Assembly: GCF_018918155.1 (NCBI RefSeq)
Contig: NZ_JAHLPY010000006.1
Coordinates: forward strand, 31,169 to 95,168
Source of the DNA: Anaerostipes sp. MSJ-23
GTDB lineage: Bacteria > Bacillota > Clostridia > Lachnospirales > Lachnospiraceae
Direction of reading: 5' to 3'
DNA: 64,000 nucleotides
Shown here: piece by piece, positions 25,329 through 36,889 of the stretch
How the letters are laid out: each line of letters begins with the position of its first letter
Position numbering within the stretch: position 1 is the stretch's first letter
The notes under the pieces: model-generated
Seen by the model: only the letters and a program-made list of their open reading frames with translations
Told to the model about the DNA's origin: nothing
Database searches by the model: none
Position numbers and translations under genes: made by a program

Positions 25329-26669
25329 TTAATGAGGCGCTCTTTCTTTGTTTCCAAATTTTGTATATTGTCCAAGCCATACAAGTTCTACCGTTCCTGT
25401 AGAACCATTTCTTTGTTTGTCAACAATAATTTCTGCAATTCCTTTTTTCTCAGAATCTTCATTATAATATTCATCACGATAAATAAACATAACAACGTCG
25501 GCATCCTGTTCGATAGAACCAGATTCTCTTAAATCAGAAAGCATCGGTTTTGCCGGCTTTCTTTCCTCCACACGACGACTCAGCTGAGACAGCGCAATGA
25601 CTGGAGCTTCCATCTCTCTTGCAAGAGCTTTCAATGACCTAGAAATTTCCGAAATCTCCTGCTGTCTGGATTCCGAACGTTTTCCCCCAGACATTAATTG
25701 AAGATAATCAATAATAATTAAATCGAGACCATGTGTCTGTTTATATCTTCTACATTTTGATCGTAGTTCCGCAATTGTAATTCCAGGAGTATCGTCAATA
25801 ATTAATGGAGAACGCCCAATCGTTCCAGCACTTTCCATGATCTTTTCCCAATCAGATTCTTGAAGATCACCGGTACGAATTGACTGAGAATCAACCATCG
25901 CTTCCATTGCCATCATACGAGTAACAAGCTGTTCTCTTGACATTTCTAAGCTGAAAATAGCTGTCGGGATATGATCCCTCACCGCTGCTCTCTGCGCAAT
26001 ATTTAATACAAATGCTGTTTTCCCCATTGCTGGGCGAGCAGCGACAATGATCAGTTCCGATGGATGCAGTCCAGAAAGCTTGTAATCAAGATCAGTAAAT
26101 CCTGTCGCAATCCCAGTAACTCTGCCTGCAGAGCTTGCTGCTTCCTCAATCGCATCCAACGTATTTAGAACTACTTTATCAATAGGGACAAAATCTTCTC
26201 TTCCGCTGGCCTGCTGCAAAAGACCAAATACATTTTTCTCTGTATGATCTAAAATTTCAGAGATATCCTCTTTTCCAAGATAGCATTCTGCTGTAATTTC
26301 TTCACTAACTTTGATCAGCTTTCGAAGTGTTGCCTTCTCCTTCACAATCCGCGCATACTGTTTTGCATTAGCCGAGGTCGGAACGGTTTCTAGAAGATCA
26401 CGAATAAATTCCAAACTTTTCATAGAATCCGGAACATCTTTTCCCTTCAGCTTATCCTGCAAAGTTACCAAATCTACTGGTTTACCTTCCTTATAAAGCT
26501 CTACCATCGTCCCGAATAAAATTCCATTTTGTTTTTGATAAAAGTCTTCCTGATCTACAATATCAATGACATCTGCAATCGCATCTCGGTCCATGATCAT
26601 CGCACCAATCACAGACTGTTCCGCCTCCGCGCTGTTAGGCTGTATCTTTTTTACAAATGCCTCATCCAT
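25329..26669 (-). CDS. dnaB: Replicative DNA helicase
   Basis: The ring-shaped 5'-to-3' helicase of the replication fork (called DnaC in Bacillus). Its 446 residues comprise the N-terminal helical domain (1-150), a linker and a RecA-like motor with Walker A ARPAMGKTAF (211-220) and Walker B LIIIDYLQLM. It lies one base after rplI, the same rplI-dnaB pairing as in Bacillus. Its putative loader and DnaD-like partner are encoded 8 kb to the right. Confidence 0.96.
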   Translation of the reverse strand: MDEAFVKKIQPNSAEAEQSVIGAMIMDRDAIADVIDIVDQEDFYQKQNGILFGTMVELYKEGKPVDLVTLQDKLKGKDVPDSMKSLEFIRDLLETVPTSANAKQYARIVKEKATLRKLIKVSEEITAECYLGKEDISEILDHTEKNVFGLLQQASGREDFVPIDKVVLNTLDAIEEAASSAGRVTGIATGFTDLDYKLSGLHPSELIIVAARPAMGKTAFVLNIAQRAAVRDHIPTAIFSLEMSREQLVTRMMAMEAMVDSQSIRTGDLQESDWEKIMESAGTIGRSPLIIDDTPGITIAELRSKCRRYKQTHGLDLIIIDYLQLMSGGKRSESRQQEISEISRSLKALAREMEAPVIALSQLSRRVEERKPAKPMLSDLRESGSIEQDADVVMFIYRDEYYNEDSEKKGIAEIIVDKQRNGSTGTVELVWLGQYTKFGNKERAPH

Positions 26670-26670
26670 C

Positions 26671-27114
26671 TTATTTTTCTTCTACCTTTACTCTTAAAGT
26701 TGCTGTTACTTCTGGATGAACTTTCACTGCTACATCATGAAATCCAAGGTTTTTAATTGGTTCACAGTGCATTTTTTTCTTATCAAGATCAAATCCAAGC
26801 TGTTTTTTTGCTTCCTGAGCAATTTCTTTTGTTGAAATAGAACCGAAAGTTCTTCCACCTTCTCCTACTTTCATTTTTACAACAAGCTGTTTTCCTTCGA
26901 TTTCCTTTGCAAGAACTTTTGCTTCTGCAAGCTCTTCTGCAGCAACTTTTTTATCATTTGCCTGACGCAGTTTTAAATCATTTAAGGCTTTTTTTGTTGC
27001 TTCTACAGCAAGATTTTTACGAAATAGTACATTTCTTGCATATCCATTATTTACTTCTACCACATCATCTTTTTTTCCAACAGATTTTACGTCTTCTAAT
27101 AAAATAACTTTCAT
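26671..27114 (-). CDS. rplI: 50S ribosomal protein L9
   Basis: A 147-residue ribosomal protein that binds 23S rRNA near the L1 stalk. It starts [20 protein letters not shown] and has the N-terminal RNA-binding domain, a long lysine-rich connecting helix and a C-terminal domain. It lies between gdpP (2 bases away) and dnaB (1 base away), a gene order also seen in Bacillus. Confidence 0.96.
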
Positions 27115-27116
27115 CT

Positions 27117-29180
27117 TTATATATCTCCTTTTTCCTTCATAATTCTTAAGGTATCAATAATGATTTCCTTTGCTTCCTCGAGAGAGACATCCACGAGCTG
27201 TGCGCCTGCCACTGTCAAATGACCACCACCGCCAAACTCTTCCATGATTCTTTGCACGTTAATCTCATCAATCGATCTTGCGCTAACATAGACTCTTTCT
27301 TCCACTCCCGTTAATACAAACGAGGCTTCAATTCCATCAATATCCAGCAACTCATTTGCCACCTGAGCTCCTATAACCGTAGGGCTGTCCACACCGATAC
27401 CAATCAAAGTCGTAATTGCAAAATGCTGATACAAAATATCTGCCTGGCTGATTGCCTTAGAGCGAATACGGTAAGTATCCATACTTTCCCTAGACATTTT
27501 TCTTACAAGATTCAGATCTGCACCATTTCTCTTTAAATAAGCAGCAGCCTCAAACGTACGAACCCCTGTTTTATTTACAAAATTGTCCGTATCAACAAGA
27601 ATACCAAAGTACATGGCATTTGCTTCCATTGGGCGCAATTTTGGTTTCGTACTAACATACTGAAGAATCTCTGCCACTAATTCACAAGTTGAGGATGCAT
27701 AGGGCTCCACATAAGAAAGAACTGGATTTTTTATCATATCTTTACTCTTTCTATGATGATCCAAGATCACAATCGTATTCGTCTGATCTAATAGCTGTTC
27801 ACACTCCGTATAATTTGAATGATTAACATCAACAACAATTAGCAATGTGCTTTCATCTGTAATTTCAATTGCTTTTTCATTGTTAATAAACATATCATCA
27901 TCGTATTCTCCACTTTTTCTAAGTGCTTCCACAATCGGACGTACTGAAATCGTCATCTCATTCATGACAATATGCGCTTTTCTTCCAAGAGAAAGTCCAA
28001 GACGATAAAGACCTACTGCCGCACCCATGGCATCCGGATCTGGTATTTTATGCGCCATAATAACAACATTTTCTTTAGATTCCAATAATTCTTTTAATGC
28101 ATGAGCTTTCACTCGAGCCTTGACTCTTGTATTCTTTTCAACAACTTCACAGTTTCCTCCGTAATAAGAAATCTCTTCCCTATCCTTGATAACCGCCTGG
28201 TCTCCTCCACGCCCAAGGGCAAGATCCATTCCAGCACAAGCAAATTCATAGTTTTCTTGATACGTATTTCCATTGATACCAAAACTGATGCTCAATGTCA
28301 TATCCATGGAATTTCCAAGACTGATATTTTTAATTTCCTTTAAAATTGAAAACTTATTTGTCTTAATCTTATCCAGATATTTTTGTTCAAAGACGACAAA
28401 ATATTTATCTTTCTCTGTTTTCTTTACAATCCCGGATACATTCTGAATAAACTTATTAATCTTTCGGTCTGCCATTGCAACAAGCATGGAACGTTTCACT
28501 TCATCAACATCATCCATAACTTCATCATAATTATCAATATAAATCAGACCAATAACCATCCTCTGATTTTCATTCTGCTCCATATATTTCTTCAAAAGCG
28601 TCTGATCAAAGAAATATGCTGCAACGAGTGAATTATCTTTCATCATCTGCTTAGAATAACATTCTTCATCTTCCCCCGAGAAATCCTCAATCCGAATTCT
28701 TGTAAATTCTACTTTATAAAAAAATTTCTTTTCTTCTTCGCCTTCCTTTTTTACATAATTAATATGCGAGATCGTATGACTAACATCTGATGGAAGTAAA
28801 TTCTTATTCAGTTCATGAAAAATTTGGTTTAAATGCTTTCCCTTATTTGACCCTGCAATTTTCTGAAATGCTGCATTACTCCAAAGAATAATGCCGTCTC
28901 CATCCAGAAGTGCATACGGAATCGGAAGTTCATGAATCAAGTAATTCTGCACCTGTCCTTGTTCAAACACAAACCCCATACATTCTTTCATGATTTCATT
29001 TTTACTGTAATAATAACCAATCGTTTGAAACGTAAAACACAATACAATAAATACAGCTAAAATGATTCCGCACTGGACACTGAAAAAGAAAATGACAATA
29101 TCTACTGGTATAAGCAACAGCATTACCCGAAACGGTCCCTTCAGATATTGATCAATCTTTGAGTTGTTTCTAATATCCAT
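27117..29180 (-). CDS. gdpP: Cyclic-di-AMP phosphodiesterase GdpP
   Basis: Degrades cyclic di-AMP, controlling potassium and osmotic balance and cell-wall stress. The 687 residues contain two N-terminal membrane helices (about 15-60), a PAS-like domain (about 80-130), a degenerate GGDEF domain (about 170-300, no GGDEF motif visible) and a DHH/DHHA1 phosphodiesterase. In the last, [13 protein letters not shown] and VILDHHRKS hold metal ligands and [12 protein letters not shown] is the DHHA1 signature. It heads a gdpP-rplI-dnaB operon. Confidence 0.95.
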
Positions 29181-29227
29181 ATTCTGCTCCTAATTGAATG
29201 CCTCTTTCAAATATATTTTTACATTTT

Positions 29228-29264
29228 ATTATACCCCGACTGGCGATATTTGTACAGCACTGTA
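29228..29264 (-). promoter_or_regulatory. gdpP promoter with overlapping palindrome
   Basis: On minus, TGTACA (29256-29251), a 17-base spacer and TATAAT (29233-29228). GTACAG-CA-CTGTAC, a 14-base symmetrical site at about 29252-29265, overlaps the -35 box and could be an operator. Confidence 0.55.
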
Positions 29265-29303
29265 CTTGAACAATCTTTATCAACATTTTCTATTTTATTT
29301 ATA

Positions 29304-29353
29304 AACCTGAATTATTCATGAGCAACTTTAGTTGCTCATGAATAATTCAGGTT
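29304..29353. repeat. Perfect 24-base inverted repeat with 2-base spacer
   Basis: Arms 29304-29327 and 29330-29353 are exactly complementary around TT, so the 50 bases form a near-complete palindrome (arm begins AACCTGAATTATTCATGAGC). Neither side has a T run, so it is a poor intrinsic terminator. It may be a cruciform, a protein site or a miniature repeat. From 29354 to 29531 I see nothing else. Confidence 0.85.
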
Positions 29354-29531
29354 GTAAGTATGATTGCAATGACAAAACTTCCATTGCTTACTTTTAAGAT
29401 TCTAACTTTTTTCTTCATCTGTAAATTACCTCTTCTGCACGACTGGTATTCCTAATCAATACCTATTTAAATAAATTAATTTCTCTTATTTTACCATACA
29501 ATGCAAGAATTTGTTTAACAAAACATAACAC

Positions 29532-29675
29532 AAGAAGGAATCCTATTTTGCAGGATTCTCTGCCTGCGACAAGTCGCTTCAGTGACAAATTTCTCCTCTG
29601 TCGCAGTGCACCTGACCGGAGGGCTTTTTATTTCATAGAAGATTTCATTAAAATTTCCTATGAAATAAAAAAACC
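29532..29675. repeat. Dispersed structured repeat, copy A
   Basis: The 62 bases at 29532-29593 align without gaps to 43225-43286 with about 46 identities, and the tail (AAATTTCCTATGAAATAAAA) recurs in both copies. Copy A has an extra internal segment. It contains hairpins GAATCCT/AGGATTC and GCGAC/GTCGC, an outer CTGCGACA/TGTCGCAG pair and a TTATTTCATAG/CTATGAAATAA pair. It abuts the rpsR terminator. Confidence 0.6.
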
Positions 29676-29699
29676 AGGCACCAAAATGGTGACCTGGTT
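29665..29699 (-). terminator. Terminator of the rpsF-ssb-rpsR operon
   Basis: On minus, AACCAGG...CCTGGTT (29699-29693 with 29678-29672) with an inner CACC/GGTG pair, followed directly by a run of seven Ts. Confidence 0.85.
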
Positions 29700-29722
29700 G
29701 ATCTTTTCTTATTATCTTTATC

Positions 29723-29977
29723 TTATTCAGCTGTATATGGCATTAAAGATAAATGTCTAGCTCTCTTGATTGCTCCTGTGATCGCTCTCTGATGTTTTGC
29801 ACATGTTCCTGTGATACGTCTTGGAAGGATTTTTCCTCTTTCAGAAACGTATTTCTTTAATGTTGCAACATCTTTATAATCGATAACAGCATCAGCTTCT
29901 GTACAGAAAGTACATACTTTTCTTCTTCTACGTCCGCCTCTTCTTCTTGCTGGAGCATCGCCTTTTGTATAAGCCAT
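29723..29977 (-). CDS. rpsR: 30S ribosomal protein S18
   Basis: An 84-residue protein that binds S6 on the small-subunit platform. It has a basic N-terminus ([16 protein letters not shown]) and the typical core ([40 protein letters not shown]). The CTFC pair and a later Cys suggest a zinc-binding (C+) form. It is last in the rpsF-ssb-rpsR operon. Confidence 0.97.
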
Positions 29978-29993
29978 GATTTCTACCTCCTAT

Positions 29994-30443
29994 TTAACTA
30001 AACGGCAGTTCTTCTTCTAAACCGTCTGGAATGTTCATAAATCCATCACTTGCGGCACTTGGCTGTGGAGCAGGTGCACTCGGCTGAGCAACACTTGCTG
30101 CTGCAGAATTTTGTGCTGCAACTGCTTTGCTTTCTGCAAAATCTTGTTCTTCAATAACAACATCTGTTGTATAAACTTTCATTCCATCCTTGTTTGTATA
30201 GCTGCCTGTCTGGATTCTTCCAGAAACAACGATTTTCGTACCCTGTTTCAGATACTTTTCTGCAAATTCACCTGCACGTCCGAATGCCACACAGCTAATA
30301 AAATCTGCATCTGGTTCATTATCTCTTTTGAATCTACGATTTACTGCTAATGTATATCTGGCAACTGCCAGCGGTCTATCTCCCTGCGTATAACGCACAT
30401 CAGGGTCTCTGGTCAGTCTTCCCATTAATACTACTTTATTCAT
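29994..30443 (-). CDS. ssb: Single-stranded DNA-binding protein
   Basis: A 149-residue OB-fold protein that coats single-stranded DNA at forks and repair sites. It starts MNKVVLMGRLTRDPDVRYTQ and has a disordered Ala/Pro/Gln-rich linker. Its acidic C-terminal tip (EEELPFS) is a variant of the conserved peptide that recruits repair proteins. Placement between rpsF and rpsR is the conserved Firmicute order. Confidence 0.96.
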   Translation of the reverse strand: MNKVVLMGRLTRDPDVRYTQGDRPLAVARYTLAVNRRFKRDNEPDADFISCVAFGRAGEFAEKYLKQGTKIVVSGRIQTGSYTNKDGMKVYTTDVVIEEQDFAESKAVAAQNSAAASVAQPSAPAPQPSAASDGFMNIPDGLEEELPFS

Positions 30444-30461
30444 ATCGGACCCTCCTATCGA

Positions 30462-30749
30462 TTAGGCTTCCTGTTTTACGCATAAATAACGTAATACGGA
30501 TTCTTCGATACGAAGTTTTTCTTCCAGTTCAGCTGGAACTGTAGCTTCAGCATCAAACTGAATGAAATAGTAGTATGCTTCTTTCATTTTCTGAATTTCG
30601 TAAGCTAACTGCTTTTTACCCCATTCATCGACGTTTGTGATTGCAGCACCTGCTGTAGTAATCATTGCCTGAACTTTTTCCAGTAAAGCTGCACGCTGTT
30701 CGTCTTCGAGTTTTGCACTTAAAACTAATGCTAATTCGTATTTTTTCAT
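30462..30749 (-). CDS. rpsF: 30S ribosomal protein S6
   Basis: A 95-residue ferredoxin-like protein that pairs with S18. I start at the ATG at 30749 (MKKYELALVLSAKLEDEQRA) because AAGGAGGT stands seven bases before it. The longer frame (30758) starts inside the ribosome site. It leads the rpsF-ssb-rpsR operon behind a structured leader. Confidence 0.96.
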   Translation of the reverse strand: MKKYELALVLSAKLEDEQRAALLEKVQAMITTAGAAITNVDEWGKKQLAYEIQKMKEAYYYFIQFDAEATVPAELEEKLRIEESVLRYLCVKQEA

Positions 30750-30857
30750 TACTTGCACCTCCTTTTGGTCTAGTGGCTCTTTCCTGTACTGAAAAGAGCA
30801 AGGATATTTTCATATACCACGAGTTCACATTCTATCATACTTTTTTACTCTTCGCAA
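30750..30857 (-). promoter_or_regulatory. rpsF operon promoter and structured leader
   Basis: On minus, TTGCGA (30857-30852), 17 bases and TAGAAT (30834-30829); this overlaps the end of the DUF951 gene. The roughly 75-base leader has an outer GTGG/CCAC helix, a small ATAT-GAAA-ATAT hairpin and a GCTCTTT/AAAGAGC hairpin near the ribosome site. Bacterial S6:S18 leaders are autoregulatory, but I do not see the CCG bulge of the described motif. Confidence 0.5.
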
Positions 30858-31036
30858 GCTTTTTTTATAAAACCACGAAAATTTTTTTCTACTGATTTTC
30901 TTGGAACCATAACCTGTCTTCCACATCCCTGACATTTCAAACGAAAATCCATTCCAACACGTAAAATCTCCCATTGATTTTCTCCACATGGATGTTGTTT
31001 TTTCATTTTAATAATATCGCCAATTTGAAATTCCAT
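30845..31036 (-). CDS. DUF951 family small zinc-ribbon-like protein
   Basis: A 63-residue protein matching DUF951 (MKKQHPCGENQWEILRVGMD, then LKCQGCGRQVMVPRKSVEKN). Cysteines in CQGCGR plus the earlier PCG may form a metal site; the fold is probably SH3-like. The function is not known, although the family is common near ori-proximal housekeeping genes in Firmicutes. Its 3' end overlaps the promoter of rpsF, and there is no terminator between them. Confidence 0.85.
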   Translation of the reverse strand: MEFQIGDIIKMKKQHPCGENQWEILRVGMDFRLKCQGCGRQVMVPRKSVEKNFRGFIKKACEE

Positions 31037-31045
31037 TCTTGATCC

Positions 31046-31108
31046 GTTACTGAAACATTATAAAAAGCCATTTTTCTGTTTTTATAATATTGCTTGTTTT
31101 ACAGTAAC
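31046..31108. repeat. Imperfect 63-base inverted repeat upstream of DUF951
   Basis: Outer arms GTTACTG (31046-31052) and CAGTAAC (31102-31108), with inner perfect arms ATTATAAAAA (31057-31066) and TTTTTATAAT (31079-31088). It lies directly before the DUF951 ribosome region and could fold in its 5' leader. From 31109 to 31275 I see only AT-rich sequence with a weak promoter-like match on minus. Confidence 0.55.
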
Positions 31109-31275
31109 TTCCTCCTTCCTTGTTTTTTTCTATTTTCCCAAAATCAAACATTACAATCTATGTTTTTCTTTCCTATATAATTTCCTTATTGTTCCATCTT
31201 AACAAACTCCCCTCTTTTCGTCTATAAACACTTCCAAAAGATTTTTTATTTTAATTAACAAGTGATCTAATGGCA

Positions 31276-31307
31276 CAAAAAAAGAACCAGGTTTTATCCT
31301 GATTCTT
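31276..31307 (-). terminator. spoVG terminator
   Basis: On minus, AAGAATCAGG pairs with CCTGGTTCTT (31307-31298 with 31291-31282, one G-U wobble), followed by seven Ts. Confidence 0.85.
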
Positions 31308-31340
31308 ATTTTGTAAAAGAAGAAGCCCTTTTTTCCGTAC

Positions 31341-31628
31341 TTATACTTCTGGTGCTGTAGCGTCAATATCTCCTAACTTCATTGCCTCATACTGTTCCAG
31401 GATCAGTCTCTGGATCATATTTCTTGTATCGGAATTAATTGGATGCGCAATATCCCGATATTCTCCGTCCGCTGCCTTACGACTTGGCATTGCGATGAAT
31501 AGTCCTTTTTCCCCTTCAATTACCTTGATATCATGAACAACGAATTCATTATCAATTGTAATAGACACTACGGCCTTCATTTTACCTTCTTTTGCTACCT
31601 TTCGAATACGTACATCTGTAATTTGCAT
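31341..31628 (-). CDS. spoVG: Septation regulator SpoVG
   Basis: A 95-residue nucleic-acid-binding protein that affects septation, sporulation and, in pathogens, virulence gene expression. It starts [20 protein letters not shown] and contains [20 protein letters not shown], the family core; the basic C-terminal helix is short. It is monocistronic with its own promoter and terminator. In Bacillus it lies beside prs, which here is 4 kb away. Confidence 0.96.
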
Positions 31629-31719
31629 GTTGTCTTCCTCCTAGTTTTATAAAATATAGCTGAAATCACGATCATAGCCATTTATATGACTTCTTCTATG
31701 GCACTTGATTGTACAAAAT

Positions 31720-31748
31720 ATTATACCATTTTTATCGTAAAATGTGAA
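31720..31748 (-). promoter_or_regulatory. spoVG promoter
   Basis: On minus, TTCACA (31748-31743), a 17-base spacer and TATAAT (31725-31720). It resembles a sigma-A promoter; I see no sigma-H-type match like that of Bacillus spoVG. Confidence 0.7.
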
Positions 31749-31853
31749 CAAATATTTTACTTTTTTCAAAGTTTTCATTATTAATTTTTAACATATAGTC
31801 TCTATTTCTCCTTTTTTTCTCCGATTTTCCCTATTTTCCTTCTGGACTTCATC

Positions 31854-31882
31854 TTGCAAGATAAATTTTTGTGCCTTATAAT
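31854..31882 (+). promoter_or_regulatory. murC promoter
   Basis: TTGCAA (31854-31859), 17 bases and TATAAT (31877-31882), 45 bases before the murC ATG, with AAAGGAC as ribosome site. Confidence 0.7.
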
Positions 31883-31927
31883 TAAGGAAAAACATTATTC
31901 ATTATTTAAAGAAAGGACATATTTCGT

Positions 31928-33313
31928 ATGTATCAGATAGATTTTAACAAACCTATTCACGTTCACTTCATGGGAATTGGAGGTATCAGCATGAGCGGAC
32001 TTGCTGAAATCCTTCTAAAAGAAGGATTTACTGTTTCCGGCTCTGATATTCATCAATCTCCAATAACGGATCGTTTGGAACAAAAAGGAGCTCATATCTT
32101 TTTCCAACAGACAGCCGAAAATATTTCATCCGATATTGATCTTGTCGTTTACACCGCCGCAATTAATTTCGACACAAATGAAGAATATAAAGAAGCTGTT
32201 CATCAAGGAATCCCTGTGATGAAACGTGCAACTCTTCTTGGTCAGCTTATGCACAATTATAAAAATGCTATTGCTGTTTCCGGAACTCATGGAAAAACAA
32301 CAACAACTTCTATGCTTTCTGAAATTTTACTTGCTGCAGATACAGATCCTACGATCAGTGTCGGTGGAATTTTAGATGCAATTGGTGGAAATATTCGTGT
32401 TGGACATTCTGATACATTTATTACAGAAGCCTGTGAATATACAAATAGTTTCCTTGAATTTTTCCCAAAAATCAGTATTATTCTGAATATTGAAGAGGAT
32501 CATATGGATTTCTTCAAGGATATCGATGATATTCGTAAATCATTCCGTGCATTTGCACATAAACTTCCAGATTATGGATATCTTGTCTTAAATGGACAAA
32601 TCGATAATATTCCTTATATTGTAGACGGATTAAAAGCTGATTATGTAACATTTGGACTTAATAATCATGATTTTGATTTTAATGCTCAGAATATCAGCTA
32701 TGACGAACTTGGACATGCTTCTTTTGATTATTATAAAAAGGATGTTCTCATCGATCACATTCATTTAAATGTACCTGGAGAACATAATATCAAAAATGCA
32801 CTGGCTGCAATTGCTGTTGCTGACAAACTAAATCTTTCTATGGATTCTGTAAAGAAAGGACTTCTTGTATTCACTGGAGCAAAACGTCGTTTTGAGAAAA
32901 AAGGAACCTGTCATGGATTTACAATTATTGATGACTATGCACATCATCCAACAGAAATCAAAGCAACTTTAAAAGCATGTAAAAACTATCCACATCATGA
33001 AGTATGGTGTATTTTCCAGCCACATACTTACACAAGAACCTATGCTTTCCTTGATGATTTTGCAGAGGCCTTAAGTCACTGTGATCATGTTATTGTGACT
33101 GATATTTATGCAGCTCGTGAAAAAGACACTGGACTTGTCAGTGCAAAGGATATCGTAGATAAAATGGCTGCATATGATGTAGATGCCCGTTTTATCAAAG
33201 ATTTCGATGACATCGAAAAATTTATTTTGGAAAATTGTAAAGAAAATGATTTGTTGATAACTATGGGTGCCGGAAACGTCGATTCTATCGGTGATTCCCT
33301 ACTGAAAAAATAG
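31928..33313 (+). CDS. murC: UDP-N-acetylmuramate-L-alanine ligase
   Basis: Adds L-alanine to UDP-MurNAc, the first amino acid of the peptidoglycan stem peptide, using ATP in the cytoplasm. The 461 residues show the N-terminal UDP-binding loop (FMGIGGISMSGLA, 14-26), ATP loop GTHGKTTTT (119-127) and the C-terminal domain with DDYAHHPTEI. The stop is immediately followed by the DnaA-box cluster. Other mur genes are not in the window. Confidence 0.96.
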   Translation: MYQIDFNKPIHVHFMGIGGISMSGLAEILLKEGFTVSGSDIHQSPITDRLEQKGAHIFFQQTAENISSDIDLVVYTAAINFDTNEEYKEAVHQGIPVMKRATLLGQLMHNYKNAIAVSGTHGKTTTTSMLSEILLAADTDPTISVGGILDAIGGNIRVGHSDTFITEACEYTNSFLEFFPKISIILNIEEDHMDFFKDIDDIRKSFRAFAHKLPDYGYLVLNGQIDNIPYIVDGLKADYVTFGLNNHDFDFNAQNISYDELGHASFDYYKKDVLIDHIHLNVPGEHNIKNALAAIAVADKLNLSMDSVKKGLLVFTGAKRRFEKKGTCHGFTIIDDYAHHPTEIKATLKACKNYPHHEVWCIFQPHTYTRTYAFLDDFAEALSHCDHVIVTDIYAAREKDTGLVSAKDIVDKMAAYDVDARFIKDFDDIEKFILENCKENDLLITMGAGNVDSIGDSLLKK

Positions 33314-33461
33314 TTATCCACATTATCCACAGGCTTATACACATGCTTTGTATCCGCGGTCTGTGGATTTTTTTTTGTTTTTTCCACAATTGTAAAATCT
33401 TTGTAAACCGCATAAATTCGTCATTTTACAATAGTTATCCACATTATCCACATTATCCACA
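33314..33461 (+). promoter_or_regulatory. Dense DnaA-box cluster between murC and the DnaD-like gene
   Basis: Exact TTATCCACA 9-mers lie at 33314-33322, 33323-33331, 33435-33443, 33444-33452 and 33453-33461, with one-mismatch copies at 33335-33343 (TTATACACA) and 33380-33388 (TTTTCCACA). Weaker reverse copies (AAATCCACA) occur at 33363-33371 and about 33480-33488. The last three exact copies abut head to tail with no spacer. The cluster lies just upstream of the promoter for two replication-initiation-like genes. It is best explained as a DnaA-responsive regulatory or titration site. Confidence 0.85.
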
Positions 33462-33497
33462 TATTGTATGGTTTTTATGGTGTGGATTTCCCTGGTA

Positions 33498-33526
33498 TTT
33501 ACATTTTTTCTTATGTGGAGTATAGT
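33498..33526 (+). promoter_or_regulatory. Promoter of the DnaD-like/DnaI-like operon
   Basis: TTTACA (33498-33503), 17 bases and TATAGT (33521-33526), about 32 bases before the ATG at 33558. The proximal DnaA boxes end 36 bases upstream of the -35. Confidence 0.7.
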
Positions 33527-33557
33527 CAGAATTAGTTTAGAAAAAGAGGAACATTAT

Positions 33558-34652
33558 ATGAATTGTATAAAAGTCACAACTACATATCCAACTGGCGGCA
33601 CCTTGCTTCCAAATGCCTTTGTTGATAATTATATGATCCGTGCCAACGGAGAATACATTAAAGTTTACATTTTTCTTCTCCGTATGGTATCTGAAGGCGC
33701 AGATTTCAGTATTCCATGCCTGGCAGATGTACTGGAACTGACCGAAGGTGATGTTACCCGTGCATTAAAATACTGGGAAAAGGAGTCTCTGATCCGCATG
33801 GAACTTGTTCACGGGAATATTGAATCCATTGAACTTCTTCCAGTTCCCGGAAAAGTAAAAAAAGTACAGAAAATACAATCTGAACATGAGATTGAGATAC
33901 ATGCTTCTAGAGAAGAAATAGCTGTCTCAAAGACAGCCCATGAACCAATTACACTACCAAAAGGAACTGCCGCTGTTCCGGCAATGAAAACTCTCTCCCC
34001 TGACGATCTTCAAAAAAAGGGCGAAGATGAACGATTTTCTTACCTTCTTTATGTTTGTGAGATGTTTATTGGCAAACCTCTAACATGCAATGATATGAAT
34101 ACCTTATTATATATGTATGAAGATCTATCCATGTCATGTGACCTGATTGAATACCTTGTGGAATACTGTGTGTCTAACGATAAGAAAAGCTTTCGCTATA
34201 TGCAGCAAGTTGCCATTAACTGGTATGAAGACCATATCACTACCGTAGACGAAGCAAAAGCATATAATAAAAATTATAAAAAAGAATACTACTCCATTAT
34301 GCATGCTTTTGGTTTAAACCAAAATCCTGCACCTGCTCAGGAAAAATATATAAAACAATGGCTAGAAATCGACGGTATGGATCTTTCACTAGTAATTGAA
34401 GCCTGTAACCGTACAATCAATGCCATCAGCAAACCAAGTTTTCCTTACGCTGATTCTATTTTAAAACAATGGAAAAAACATAATATTACAACGGTTGAAC
34501 AGACCAAATCCTTCTATCAGAACCAAAAAGCACCAAAAACATTTACGAATACAAATACGAATCATAATCATCCAACACATAATTTTACGCAGCGTGATTA
34601 TGATTTTGATGCGCTTGAAGAACAACTTCTTCAAAAACAGTTTGCAGAATAA
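33558..34652 (+). CDS. DnaD domain-containing replication protein
   Basis: A 364-residue protein with a DnaD/DnaB-like winged helix at the N-terminus (about residues 15-100, IYFLL-like IKVYIFLLRMVSEGADFSIP, then LTEGDVTRALKYWEKESLIR). A charged linker follows, then two helical DnaD-type segments (about 165-235 and 250-320; DLIEYLVEYCVSNDKKSFRY). Such proteins remodel origin DNA and help load the helicase. I start at 33558 behind GAGGAAC; the frame from 33468 would include the promoter. It is followed 16 bases on by a helicase-loader gene. Confidence 0.85.
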   Translation: MNCIKVTTTYPTGGTLLPNAFVDNYMIRANGEYIKVYIFLLRMVSEGADFSIPCLADVLELTEGDVTRALKYWEKESLIRMELVHGNIESIELLPVPGKVKKVQKIQSEHEIEIHASREEIAVSKTAHEPITLPKGTAAVPAMKTLSPDDLQKKGEDERFSYLLYVCEMFIGKPLTCNDMNTLLYMYEDLSMSCDLIEYLVEYCVSNDKKSFRYMQQVAINWYEDHITTVDEAKAYNKNYKKEYYSIMHAFGLNQNPAPAQEKYIKQWLEIDGMDLSLVIEACNRTINAISKPSFPYADSILKQWKKHNITTVEQTKSFYQNQKAPKTFTNTNTNHNHPTHNFTQRDYDFDALEEQLLQKQFAE

Positions 34653-34668
34653 ATCAGGAGAGTTCATT

Positions 34669-35661
34669 ATGCCATTATCGAACCGTGATTATCAAAAAAT
34701 TATGCGTCTATATGAAAACCGCAGACTTTCAAATTATCATACTCATGAGGAGCGAAAAAAAGAAATTTACGAAAAACTTCCAGAGATTCAAAAAATCGAT
34801 CAGGAAATTGCCAAAAACTCCATTTCATTTGGACGTAAGCTAATTTTTCAGGATGACCAGAAGATCCGTGATCAATATAAACAAAAAAATCATCGGCTTC
34901 TTCTAGAAAAAAAAAGACTTCTGCATAAGGCTGGTTATGCAGATGATTATCTAGAACCAATCTATCATTGTAAAAAATGCAAAGATACCGGTTATATTGG
35001 CCAAGAAAAATGTACCTGTTTTCAACAGACAATCATTAATCTTCTTTATACAAGCTCCAATATGGATCGGATTCTTGCGCGTGAAAACTTCCAAACATTT
35101 CGCGAAGAATATTACTCGGATCAAATCACACCGAATGGACATCCAAGTCCCCGAACAAATATCAAAAAGATCCGAAAGCATTGTATCGATTTTATTTCTC
35201 ATTTTCCAGCTGGAGAAAATATTTTATTTCAAGGTTCTACCGGAGTTGGAAAAACTTTTTTAAGTCATTGTATTGCAAAAGAAATTATGGACAAAGGATA
35301 TACTTGCGTCTATGTTACTGCCTTTCAGTTGTTCGATCATCTTGCAAAACATACTTTTCAAAGAAACAAGACACCGGATGACGACAATATCTATTCTTTA
35401 GATATGATTTTAAAAGCAGATTTGCTAATTATTGATGATCTTGGAACTGAAATGACGAACAAGTTTGTTATTTCGCAATTATTTCAATGTCTGAATGAAC
35501 GATTGATCCAAGAAAAATCTACCATCATCTCAACCAATTTATCTGTAAAAGACTTTCGAGATGCTTACTCAGAACGGATTTTTTCACGGATCATTGAATG
35601 TTATTCGTGGCAAAAACTATACGGAGACGACATACGTTTTAAAAAATCGAACTTGACGTAA
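34669..35661 (+). CDS. DnaC/DnaI-like helicase loader ATPase
   Basis: A 330-residue AAA+ protein. An N-terminal helical region carries a cysteine cluster (CKKCKDTGYI and CTC, about residues 104-121), like the zinc-binding helicase-contact domain of DnaI. Walker A GSTGVGKT (about 187-194) and Walker B LLIIDDLGTE follow. I start at 34669 behind AGGAGAG; the longer frame from 34495 lies inside the preceding gene. IstB transposition helpers share the fold, but the pairing with a DnaD-like gene and the lack of a transposase favour a loader. Confidence 0.88.
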   Translation: MPLSNRDYQKIMRLYENRRLSNYHTHEERKKEIYEKLPEIQKIDQEIAKNSISFGRKLIFQDDQKIRDQYKQKNHRLLLEKKRLLHKAGYADDYLEPIYHCKKCKDTGYIGQEKCTCFQQTIINLLYTSSNMDRILARENFQTFREEYYSDQITPNGHPSPRTNIKKIRKHCIDFISHFPAGENILFQGSTGVGKTFLSHCIAKEIMDKGYTCVYVTAFQLFDHLAKHTFQRNKTPDDDNIYSLDMILKADLLIIDDLGTEMTNKFVISQLFQCLNERLIQEKSTIISTNLSVKDFRDAYSERIFSRIIECYSWQKLYGDDIRFKKSNLT

Positions 35662-35681
35662 CGTCTTTGTAATGTTATAAA
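35653..35681 (+). promoter_or_regulatory. prs promoter
   Basis: TTGACG (35653-35658, overlapping the end of the loader gene), 17 bases and TATAAA (35676-35681). GAAGGAG precedes the ATG at 35720. Confidence 0.6.
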
Positions 35682-35719
35682 CAACTATAGAATGAATAAT
35701 ATACGAAGGAGATAGTATC

Positions 35720-36889
35720 ATGAGACGATCTGACCGCAACTTTACTAAGATTCCTGGCGGAAAATTAGGAATCATCGCTCTTAAAAGCTGTGAAGCTCTT
35801 GGAGAAGAAATTGACAACTATATTGTAAAATGGAGAAAAGAAACAAATAGACAGTTTCAGGATTCCATTGCCTGTGACGGATATTTAAGAGATACTTACC
35901 TTATGGATGCCGTATGCCCTCGTTTTGGTTCCGGTGAAGCCAAAGGTCTTATCCGTGAATCTGTCCGCGATATGGACCTTTACATTTTAGTTGACGTATT
36001 AAACTACAGTCTGACTTACTCACTCTGCGGTTATACAAACCACATGTCACCAGATGATCATTATTCTGACCTGAAACGTATCATCAGTGCCGCTGCTGGT
36101 AAAGCAAAAAGTATCAATGTAATTATGCCTTTCCTTTACGAAAGCCGTCAGCATAAGAGAAGTACAAGAGAATCTCTGGATTGTGCTGTTATGCTTCAGG
36201 AACTGCAGAGCCTTGGCGTTGATAATATCATCACTTTTGATGCACATGATCCAAGAGTACAGAATGCAATTCCGATCAGCGGATTTGATAATGTTCAGCC
36301 AACTTACCAATTTGTAAAAGCTTTGGTAGAAGAATGTGATGATGTTGAATTTGATAAGGATAAATTAATGGTAATCAGTCCAGATGAAGGTGCTATGCAG
36401 CGTGCTGTTTATATGGCAAACGTTGTTGGTGTTGATGTTGGTATGTTTTACAAACGTCGTGATTATTCCACAGTTATCGATGGACGTAACCCGATCGTCG
36501 CACATGAATTTCTTGGTGATTCCCTGGATGGAAAAGACGTCCTGATCATCGATGATATGATTTCCTCTGGAGAAAGTATGATCGATGTTGCAAAACAGTT
36601 AAAGAACCGTCATGCAAAACGTGTCTTCTGTCTTTCAACTTTTGGTCTTTTCACTAATGGACTAGACGTCTTTGATAAAGCCATTGAAGATGGTGTTATT
36701 GAAAAAGTTATTACAACCAATCTTACTTACCAAACACCTGAATTATTAAGCCGTGATTGGTATATTTCTGCTGACGTAGGAAAATATGTTGCTCTCTTGA
36801 TCGATACATTAAATCATGATGCATCTATTAGTGAATTACTTGATCCTACAGAGAGAATCAGTGAATACCTAGAAAAACATACAAAATAA
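35720..36889 (+). CDS. prs: Ribose-phosphate pyrophosphokinase, long form
   Basis: Makes PRPP from ribose 5-phosphate and ATP for nucleotide, histidine and tryptophan synthesis. PRPP-binding loop VLIIDDMISSGES lies at about residue 273, and the flexible catalytic region is recognisable (YESRQHKRST, FDAHDPRVQNA). At 389 residues it is about 70 longer than the usual 315. An N-terminal extension (IPGGKLGIIALKSCEALGEE) and altered loops set it in a divergent clostridial branch. It has its own promoter and terminator. Confidence 0.9.
   Translation: MRRSDRNFTKIPGGKLGIIALKSCEALGEEIDNYIVKWRKETNRQFQDSIACDGYLRDTYLMDAVCPRFGSGEAKGLIRESVRDMDLYILVDVLNYSLTYSLCGYTNHMSPDDHYSDLKRIISAAAGKAKSINVIMPFLYESRQHKRSTRESLDCAVMLQELQSLGVDNIITFDAHDPRVQNAIPISGFDNVQPTYQFVKALVEECDDVEFDKDKLMVISPDEGAMQRAVYMANVVGVDVGMFYKRRDYSTVIDGRNPIVAHEFLGDSLDGKDVLIIDDMISSGESMIDVAKQLKNRHAKRVFCLSTFGLFTNGLDVFDKAIEDGVIEKVITTNLTYQTPELLSRDWYISADVGKYVALLIDTLNHDASISELLDPTERISEYLEKHTK

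Follow-up and report, generated by a model that had tools for sequence, protein, structure and literature searches.

Phased arrays of abutting DnaA boxes upstream of the dnaD-dnaI gene pair suggest a DnaA-dependent loop in Anaerostipes and other Lachnospirales

The best-known sites of DnaA are oriC and its own promoter. In a member of the genus Anaerostipes (family Lachnospiraceae, order Lachnospirales), a dense group of DnaA boxes lies between murC and two genes of the helicase-loading type, and the question it raises is what DnaA boxes do at such a place. An initial annotation of the window (the whole stretch of 64,000 nucleotides that was analysed) had offered two answers: (i) DnaA controls the downstream operon; or (ii) the site titrates DnaA. 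Both have precedents. DnaA is an established transcriptional regulator of replication genes (PMC8203912), and in Bacillus subtilis DnaA-box clusters outside oriC affect initiation (PMC13220808).

The features of the locus are collected in Table 1. The stop codon of murC (TAG, 33311-33313) adjoins the first array of boxes, termed array A, with no gap. As the initial annotation had supposed, the two genes behind the boxes are of the helicase-loading type by family profiles, i.e., a DnaD-domain gene, whose product has the DnaB_2/DnaD domain as two stretches, and a DnaI/DnaC-like gene, whose match to NF005304 exceeds the cut-off and whose matches to the DnaI and DnaC models fall below it. Gene order through the ribose-phosphate diphosphokinase gene is kept in many relatives. 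The replicative helicase gene, rplI, a gdpP-like gene and ssb are located within about 9 kb of the loader pair (window 25329-36889). The block from murC through dnaD and dnaI to the ribose-phosphate diphosphokinase gene (prs) opposes mostly - strand surroundings, and GC skew drops to about zero at the block.

Table 1. Coordinates of the features of the murC-dnaD-dnaI locus, in positions of the window
Feature	Position	Strand	Basis
murC (UDP-N-acetylmuramate--L-alanine ligase)	31928..33313	+	TIGR01082, 482.8 bits; open reading frame
Array A, two exact abutting boxes	33314..33331	+	Box search; at or near the murC end in many relatives
Predicted intrinsic murC terminator	33325..33376	+	Fold -17.1 kcal/mol, z -3.5
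Third box of array A, TTATACACA	33335..33343	+	Box search; 3 bp past box 2
One-mismatch box TTTTCCACA	33380..33388	+	Box search
Array B, three exact abutting boxes	33435..33461	+	Box search
Predicted dnaD promoter, -35 (TTTACA)	33498..33503	+	Promoter scan; relatives
Predicted dnaD promoter, -10 (TATAGT)	33521..33526	+	Promoter scan; relatives
Shine-Dalgarno-like AGAGG	33545..33549	+	Reading of the sequence
dnaD-like gene, 364 aa	33558..34652	+	PF07261, 135.8 bits, two stretches; TIGR01446, 102.4 bits
dnaI/dnaC-like AAA+ gene, 330 aa, predicted helicase loader	34669..35661	+	NF005304, 367.1 bits; PF01695, 60.4 bits
Ribose-phosphate diphosphokinase-like gene, next after dnaI	35720..36889	+	NF005299, 583.4 bits

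Five exact copies of the box TTATCCACA were found (33314-33322, 33323-33331, 33435-33443, 33444-33452 and 33453-33461), together with two copies that carry one mismatch (TTATACACA and TTTTCCACA). All seven are on the + strand and span 148 bp between murC and the dnaD-dnaI pair, which agrees with the count first given for this site (five exact and two one-mismatch copies within 150 bases). The zero-spacer triple described at the same time is present as array B; it is not the sole array, since the first two exact boxes (array A) abut as well. Array B starts 121 bp past the start of array A and 86 bp ahead of the -10, and the two arrays have a 23-bp exact repeat in common. In some Anaerostipes (L010-L014), the two arrays show concerted variation, base nine of their first box being G in both or T in both according to lineage; a further doublet elsewhere in such genomes (upstream of hpf in L072) remains consensus.

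The five exact boxes are the only ones in the 64-kb window, where 100 dinucleotide shuffles yielded a mean of 0.74 and a maximum of 3. When one mismatch is allowed, 41 matches appear in the window versus a shuffled mean of 22 and, in consequence, single one-mismatch boxes mean little by themselves. The TTTTCCACA box was aligned and unchanged in all 11 Anaerostipes loci of the alignment. The genome (2.52 Mb in 47 contigs) contains 52 exact boxes, and the dnaD cluster is the densest among the matches listed; the Poisson expectation at the genome density is approximately 2e-10 clusters of five per 148 bp. The other main exact-box clusters are located at the flanks of dnaA (contig C17) and upstream of hpf (contig C21). 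Exact abutting doublets occur at two places only, i.e., dnaD (three overlapping matches) and hpf (one), and the dnaA region has one abutting doublet with one mismatch.

The arrangement is widespread among relatives. For 61 genomes (that of the window plus 60 others), of which 59 gave a dnaD match, an abutting pair was defined as two boxes with at most one mismatch each within 700 bp upstream of dnaD. A forward pair is present in 30 of the 36 loci of the family (own locus included) and in 12 of the 23 loci from other families of the order, and none of these 59 loci has a reversed pair upstream of dnaD. Among 80 named loci, mostly from Lachnospiraceae, 47 have two forward arrays, 18 have one and 15 have none, and reversed arrays number zero. 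The search for the same array in related genomes, which had been set as a check on the initial annotation, therefore comes out in its favour, with boxes kept upstream of dnaD in 65 of the 80 named relatives (at least one array) and in 30 of the 36 family loci. Some lineages have no abutting pair (15/80 named loci, 6/36 family loci and 11/23 loci of other families). In a class-level sample, made up of the best 30 of 114 genomes with a match and with gene starts estimated for L252, L253 and L255, the pair is found in 3/3 same-family relatives and in 0/1 other family of the order; the 25 dnaD loci from other orders of the class (12 families) have none.

Searches of whole genomes point the same way. 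A doublet with at most one mismatch per box occurs in 48 of the 61 genomes (reversed control, 0), and one with at most two mismatches in 381 of 397 family genomes, a level at which a minority of genomes match the reversed control too. The exact two-array pattern was found in 38 of the 397 genomes at 86-146 bp and in 53 at 146-206 bp, the reversed control giving none. The two-array loci fetched among the matches listed, with up to 30 matches per scan, number 59 (44 at dnaD, 12 at hpf and 3 at dnaA), a figure that includes the window itself and one duplicated place.

The distance between the starts of the two arrays follows a comb. In 102 non-redundant two-array murC-dnaD regions (119 before removal of near-identical ones; 69 in the discovery set), A-to-B distances cluster near 88, 98, 110, 121, 133, 143, 155, 166, 177 and 187 bp, with stray values such as 127, 129, 151 and 193 bp. 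The best period is 11.25 bp (nR2 45), and 84 of the 102 regions lie at most 2 bp from the fitted comb, about 36 being expected, with the phase fitted on the same data. Two sets of 2000 jitter nulls (up to 8 bp, independent or grouped by value), which only approximate shared ancestry, never reached this nR2. Counting each distinct distance once leaves an nR2 of 10.3 at 11.2 bp, again attained by 0/2000 nulls. The 33 regions added after discovery, which were chosen by the exact two-array pattern and are phylogenetically not independent of the rest, peak at 11.25 bp with a phase of 8.6 versus 8.5 bp.

Gain or loss of 9-bp boxes was rejected as the source of the A-to-B periodicity (nR2 6.7 at 9 bp versus 45.0 at 11.3 bp). 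Among the 45 closest disjoint sister pairs, 12 are unchanged, 11 have shifted by 1-4 bp and 22 by at least 5 bp; 18 of these 22 larger changes come to a multiple of 11.25 bp, give or take 2.8 bp, half being expected. Five sister pairs have shifted by 8-9 bp, possibly because a box was gained or lost. Shared ancestry inflates the comb and register tests, whose effective sample is smaller; for example, the 155- and 166-bp classes seem to be linked through one insertion past the terminator.

Spacing between sites that follows the helical repeat, as found here with a period of 11.25 bp, is one feature expected of a looping element. Loops of LacR in living Escherichia coli were fitted with 11.08-11.60 bp per turn (PMC1762422). 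Since the comb period falls within this in vivo range, a loop is suggested, in which the proteins on A and B would face each other across the DNA between them.

A second register relates array B to the dnaD promoter. The good promoter that had been noticed ahead of the two genes is indeed found as TTTACA-17-TATAGT (33498-33526), with 10 of 12 consensus matches; promoter-like sites in 33200-33700 number 5, versus a shuffled mean of 2.5. Across the nine Anaerostipes loci tested, the -35 is TTTACA in eight and TTTACT in one, and the -10 is TATAGT in all nine, 85-86 bp from array B. Among the 102 two-array regions, a -10 was called in 86 (21.6 after shuffling), and in 73 of these 86 array B starts 75-78, 85-89 or 96-98 bp ahead of it, the main distances being about 76, 86-87 and 96-97 bp. 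The best period is 10.35 bp (nR2 56.8) in 79 regions, the fit having omitted the 7 of 86 outside 60-125 bp, and 3 of 2000 grouped nulls reach this periodicity. A 9-bp box step is only partly excluded as the source of the 10.4-bp register (nR2 33.1 at 9 bp versus 56.8). From array A to the -10 the comb is weaker (nR2 19.6), which argues that the arrays and the promoter are not one rigid unit.

The register also holds in a set of loci taken with or without arrays, i.e., the 80 named loci, reduced to 77 non-redundant ones. A -10 could be called in 69 of them (the register tests omitted 16/102 regions and 8/77 loci without a callable -10), and 61 of the 69 have a forward box at 75-78, 84-89 or 95-98 bp, against a mean of 17.4 and a maximum of 30 in 2000 shifted nulls; the other 8 have no box at these positions. 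Boxes in the named loci are forward in 283 cases and reverse in 45. Fewer than two arrays are present in 33 named loci, 31 of which have a -10, and 28 of these 31 keep a box at the register positions; in four Mediterraneibacter loci with fewer than two arrays, boxes are found at 85 and 62 bp. The boxes therefore go with the dnaD promoter and not with murC. In short, the dnaD promoter region contains consensus DnaA boxes whose position relative to the core promoter is conserved, as would be expected of a promoter in the DnaA regulon. Between the two initial answers, the register fits control of the operon, and pure titration does not predict it.

The -10 of the dnaD promoter is of the extended type in relatives, TGTGCTATAAT, by a consensus from 75 regions with 60-100 bp in which TG and TATAAT were partly imposed by the search rule. 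Its -35 is weak and T-rich, with two T's conserved in 97% of the 75 regions and 3-4 of 6 matches in 69/75, yet it is better than shuffled sequence. The Anaerostipes -10 (TATAGT) has no extended TG and was found under a different rule from that used for the relatives.

The DnaA encoded by the genome (TIGR00362, 525 bits) can be aligned over its length with the solved DnaA of B. subtilis, and also with the DNA-binding domain of the E. coli protein (1j1v, the complex of this domain with a box). A structure of the DnaA DNA-binding domain with a box is mentioned in PMC5835720. From consensus boxes and a canonical encoded DnaA, we infer that DnaA occupies both arrays. With moderate confidence, based on sequence comparison, we propose that DnaA binds arrays A and B, loops the DNA and activates the phased dnaD promoter, so that the supply of helicase loader follows active DnaA. 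The steps would be as follows: (i) DnaA occupies both arrays; (ii) a DnaA assembly pairs A with B across a short DNA loop; (iii) array B, which a start site about 7 nt past the -10 (near 33533) would place at about -98 to -72, contacts RNA polymerase, as its phased register with the -10 predicts; (iv) DnaA, with the DNA looped, acts on the dnaD-dnaI promoter, more likely as an activator; and (v) the supply of the predicted loader follows active DnaA, the murC terminator keeping murC transcripts out of the loop. A positive sign of control is a weak inference, favoured by the upstream position of the site and by the weak -35 of relatives. Weak -35 elements are more typical of activated promoters. 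DnaD interacts with DnaA in B. subtilis (PMC13220808, PMC10201431) and, by analogy, a feedback of DnaD on its own promoter is possible.

The same geometry could serve the opposite sign. A loop made by DnaA at both arrays might instead trap RNA polymerase at the dnaD promoter, so that abundant DnaA would curb loader synthesis by negative feedback; DnaD, a DnaA binder in B. subtilis, could then relieve the repression. The comb and the register phasing are expected equally under such repression, and DnaA acts on its own synthesis, by repression of its promoters in E. coli and by autoregulation in B. subtilis (PMC8203912). Nevertheless, array B lies ahead of the -35, clear of the core promoter, and the -35 of relatives is weak (although better than shuffled), so that we consider a repressing loop possible but the less probable of the two signs.

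Storage or conversion of DnaA by the cluster, with no promoter role, as in the B. subtilis clusters or E. coli datA/DARS, is improbable. A cluster of consensus boxes outside oriC is present, as in titration clusters (DBC/datA), and it has five exact boxes. Furthermore, dnaA and dnaD are about 44-137 kb apart in the 5 of 8 searched relatives that have both genes on one contig, and deletion of six B. subtilis clusters leads to early initiation (PMC13220808). But a store of DnaA needs neither a single orientation nor a fixed register with the dnaD -10, and a box is kept at the register positions in 28 of the 31 loci with fewer than two arrays and a -10. In those five relatives with both genes on one contig, dnaD is transcribed towards dnaA.

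Array A has a further feature, since the predicted terminator of murC makes use of its second box. The hairpin (33325-33368, followed by a T run) has its 5' arm within box 2. In relatives, the TGTGGA partner of box 2 is present in 96 of the 102 two-array regions and the T run in 93. The inner stem pairs covary: positions one to three are each paired in 87 of 96 regions, counting G-T, and all four Watson-Crick types are seen. The arm within the box is invariant. Box 2 is thus predicted to be one sequence with a dual role, as a DNA site and as an RNA arm. The boxes as a by-product of the terminator were rejected as the sole cause: array B and the promoter register lie outside the terminator, and in four named loci (L104, L127, L131 and L151) the first array starts only 175-404 bp past murC and yet has a second array 176-193 bp later. 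Of 102 A-B spacers of relatives, 57 contain a TTNACAT motif, often TTTACATAA, about 62 or 73 bp past the array A start, most copies occupying either of two sites separated by 11-12 bp.

The terminator lends itself to another explanation, by which DnaA bound to box 2, as DNA or RNA, modulates termination and so read-through into dnaD. The partner of box 2 in 96/102 regions and the fold z of -3.5 are in keeping with it, and a DnaA-dependent attenuator was proposed for the E. coli his leader (PMC10989985). It is, however, very improbable, as it leaves array B, the A-B comb and the -10 register unexplained, and several short-spacer loci keep boxes only at the promoter register.

Even less probable is that the boxes are read by another protein or represent a non-functional spreading repeat, as the 23-bp repeat and the concerted variation of the arrays in some Anaerostipes might suggest. 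The box sequence is the DnaA consensus, the same doublets are found at dnaA in two genera of the fetched sample, and no match came from the reversed controls of the two-array patterns, nor from those run at up to one mismatch (at two mismatches, the reversed-pattern control matches in a minority of genomes). Finally, a second replication origin or unwinding site was rejected: tandem consensus boxes do adjoin A+T-rich DNA here and replication genes are nearby, but both strands of 33301-33560 lack a DnaA-trio (a TAN run of at least two), GC skew is negative to either side of the site (-0.195 and -0.157), and the oriC boxes flank dnaA on another contig (C17), where dnaA and dnaN have a TACTACTAC run between them and, in that gap (L001 6275-6300), a trio-like run follows the boxes, CTACTACTACGAAGACTACGG.

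The arrays are not confined to dnaD. In the same genome, tandem DnaA boxes are located upstream of hpf, which encodes a ribosome hibernation factor (TIGR00741; L002 3791-3860, contig C21), and they recur there in relatives (L071-L076, L078, L080, L081, L087 and hpf loci among L171-L196). Half of the fetched non-dnaD doublet places (10/20) are hpf, and where the pattern scans find two arrays, 11 of the 12 hpf loci fetched show a spacing of exactly 97 bp and the remaining one 86 bp, a difference of 11 bp. The hpf promoter is a likely second DnaA target with the tandem-box design. Together with the second array, the 11-bp comb and the terminator that uses box 2, it had been overlooked by the initial annotation. 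Abutting doublets were also seen upstream of trmB (tRNA guanosine(46)-N7-methyltransferase) in two genera (L077 1411, L083 1377), and the flanks of dnaA carry tandem abutting doublets in two genera (L079, L189, L190 and L224), partly in both orientations.

A wider form of the activating loop may be put forward tentatively. The Lachnospirales might have evolved a DnaA loop switch in which two phased zero-spacer arrays, through a loop of 8-17 turns, set loader transcription, with DnaD feeding back on the DnaA that drives dnaD and the hpf module coupling ribosome hibernation to initiation. If true, a large bacterial order would match helicase loading to DnaA activity by transcription, DnaA would be able to act as a looping regulator, and the hpf promoter would link replication control with ribosome hibernation. 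In the titles, abstract openings and passages searched in the open-licence literature, no report was found of DnaA controlling a dnaD/dnaI promoter in Clostridia, or hpf. The B. subtilis dnaB-dnaI operon may be among the DnaA-responsive ones.

Several known systems resemble the locus in part. Clostridioides difficile CD3653-CD3654 are likewise adjacent DnaD-like and loader genes, the biochemistry of the loader being known (PMC5204125); upstream of dnaD, abutting arrays were found in 0/25 examined loci from other orders of the class. The DnaA-box clusters (DBCs) of B. subtilis are, as here, away from oriC, but they are described through their effect on initiation, whereas Anaerostipes has two one-orientation zero-spacer arrays phased with each other and with a promoter (PMC13220808). 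Double DnaA boxes of E. coli are also one-strand pairs: in ChIP-seq, DnaA prefers boxes 2-3 bp apart, and binding is disrupted when the spacing is altered (PMC11317965). The second and third boxes of array A, 3 bp apart, resemble them; the conserved pairs upstream of dnaD, in contrast, are spaced 0 bp, and the remark in the initial annotation that a zero-spacer array is unusual agrees with the E. coli preference (PMC11317965).

LacR repression loops share with the locus two sites that follow the helical repeat (PMC1762422); the looping protein would here be DnaA, an AAA+ initiator, and the loop is one predicted from comparative spacing. DnaA boxes upstream of replication genes are known from dnaA-dnaN in E. 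coli and B. subtilis and from dnaB and dnaQ in Caulobacter crescentus (PMC8203912), whereas the putative Anaerostipes target is a predicted loader pair with a phased two-array layout. As far as our searches show, what is new with respect to these systems is (i) the one-orientation zero-spacer arrays, the two-array comb, the promoter register and the box shared with a terminator; and (ii) a loader operon as the target across much of a bacterial order.
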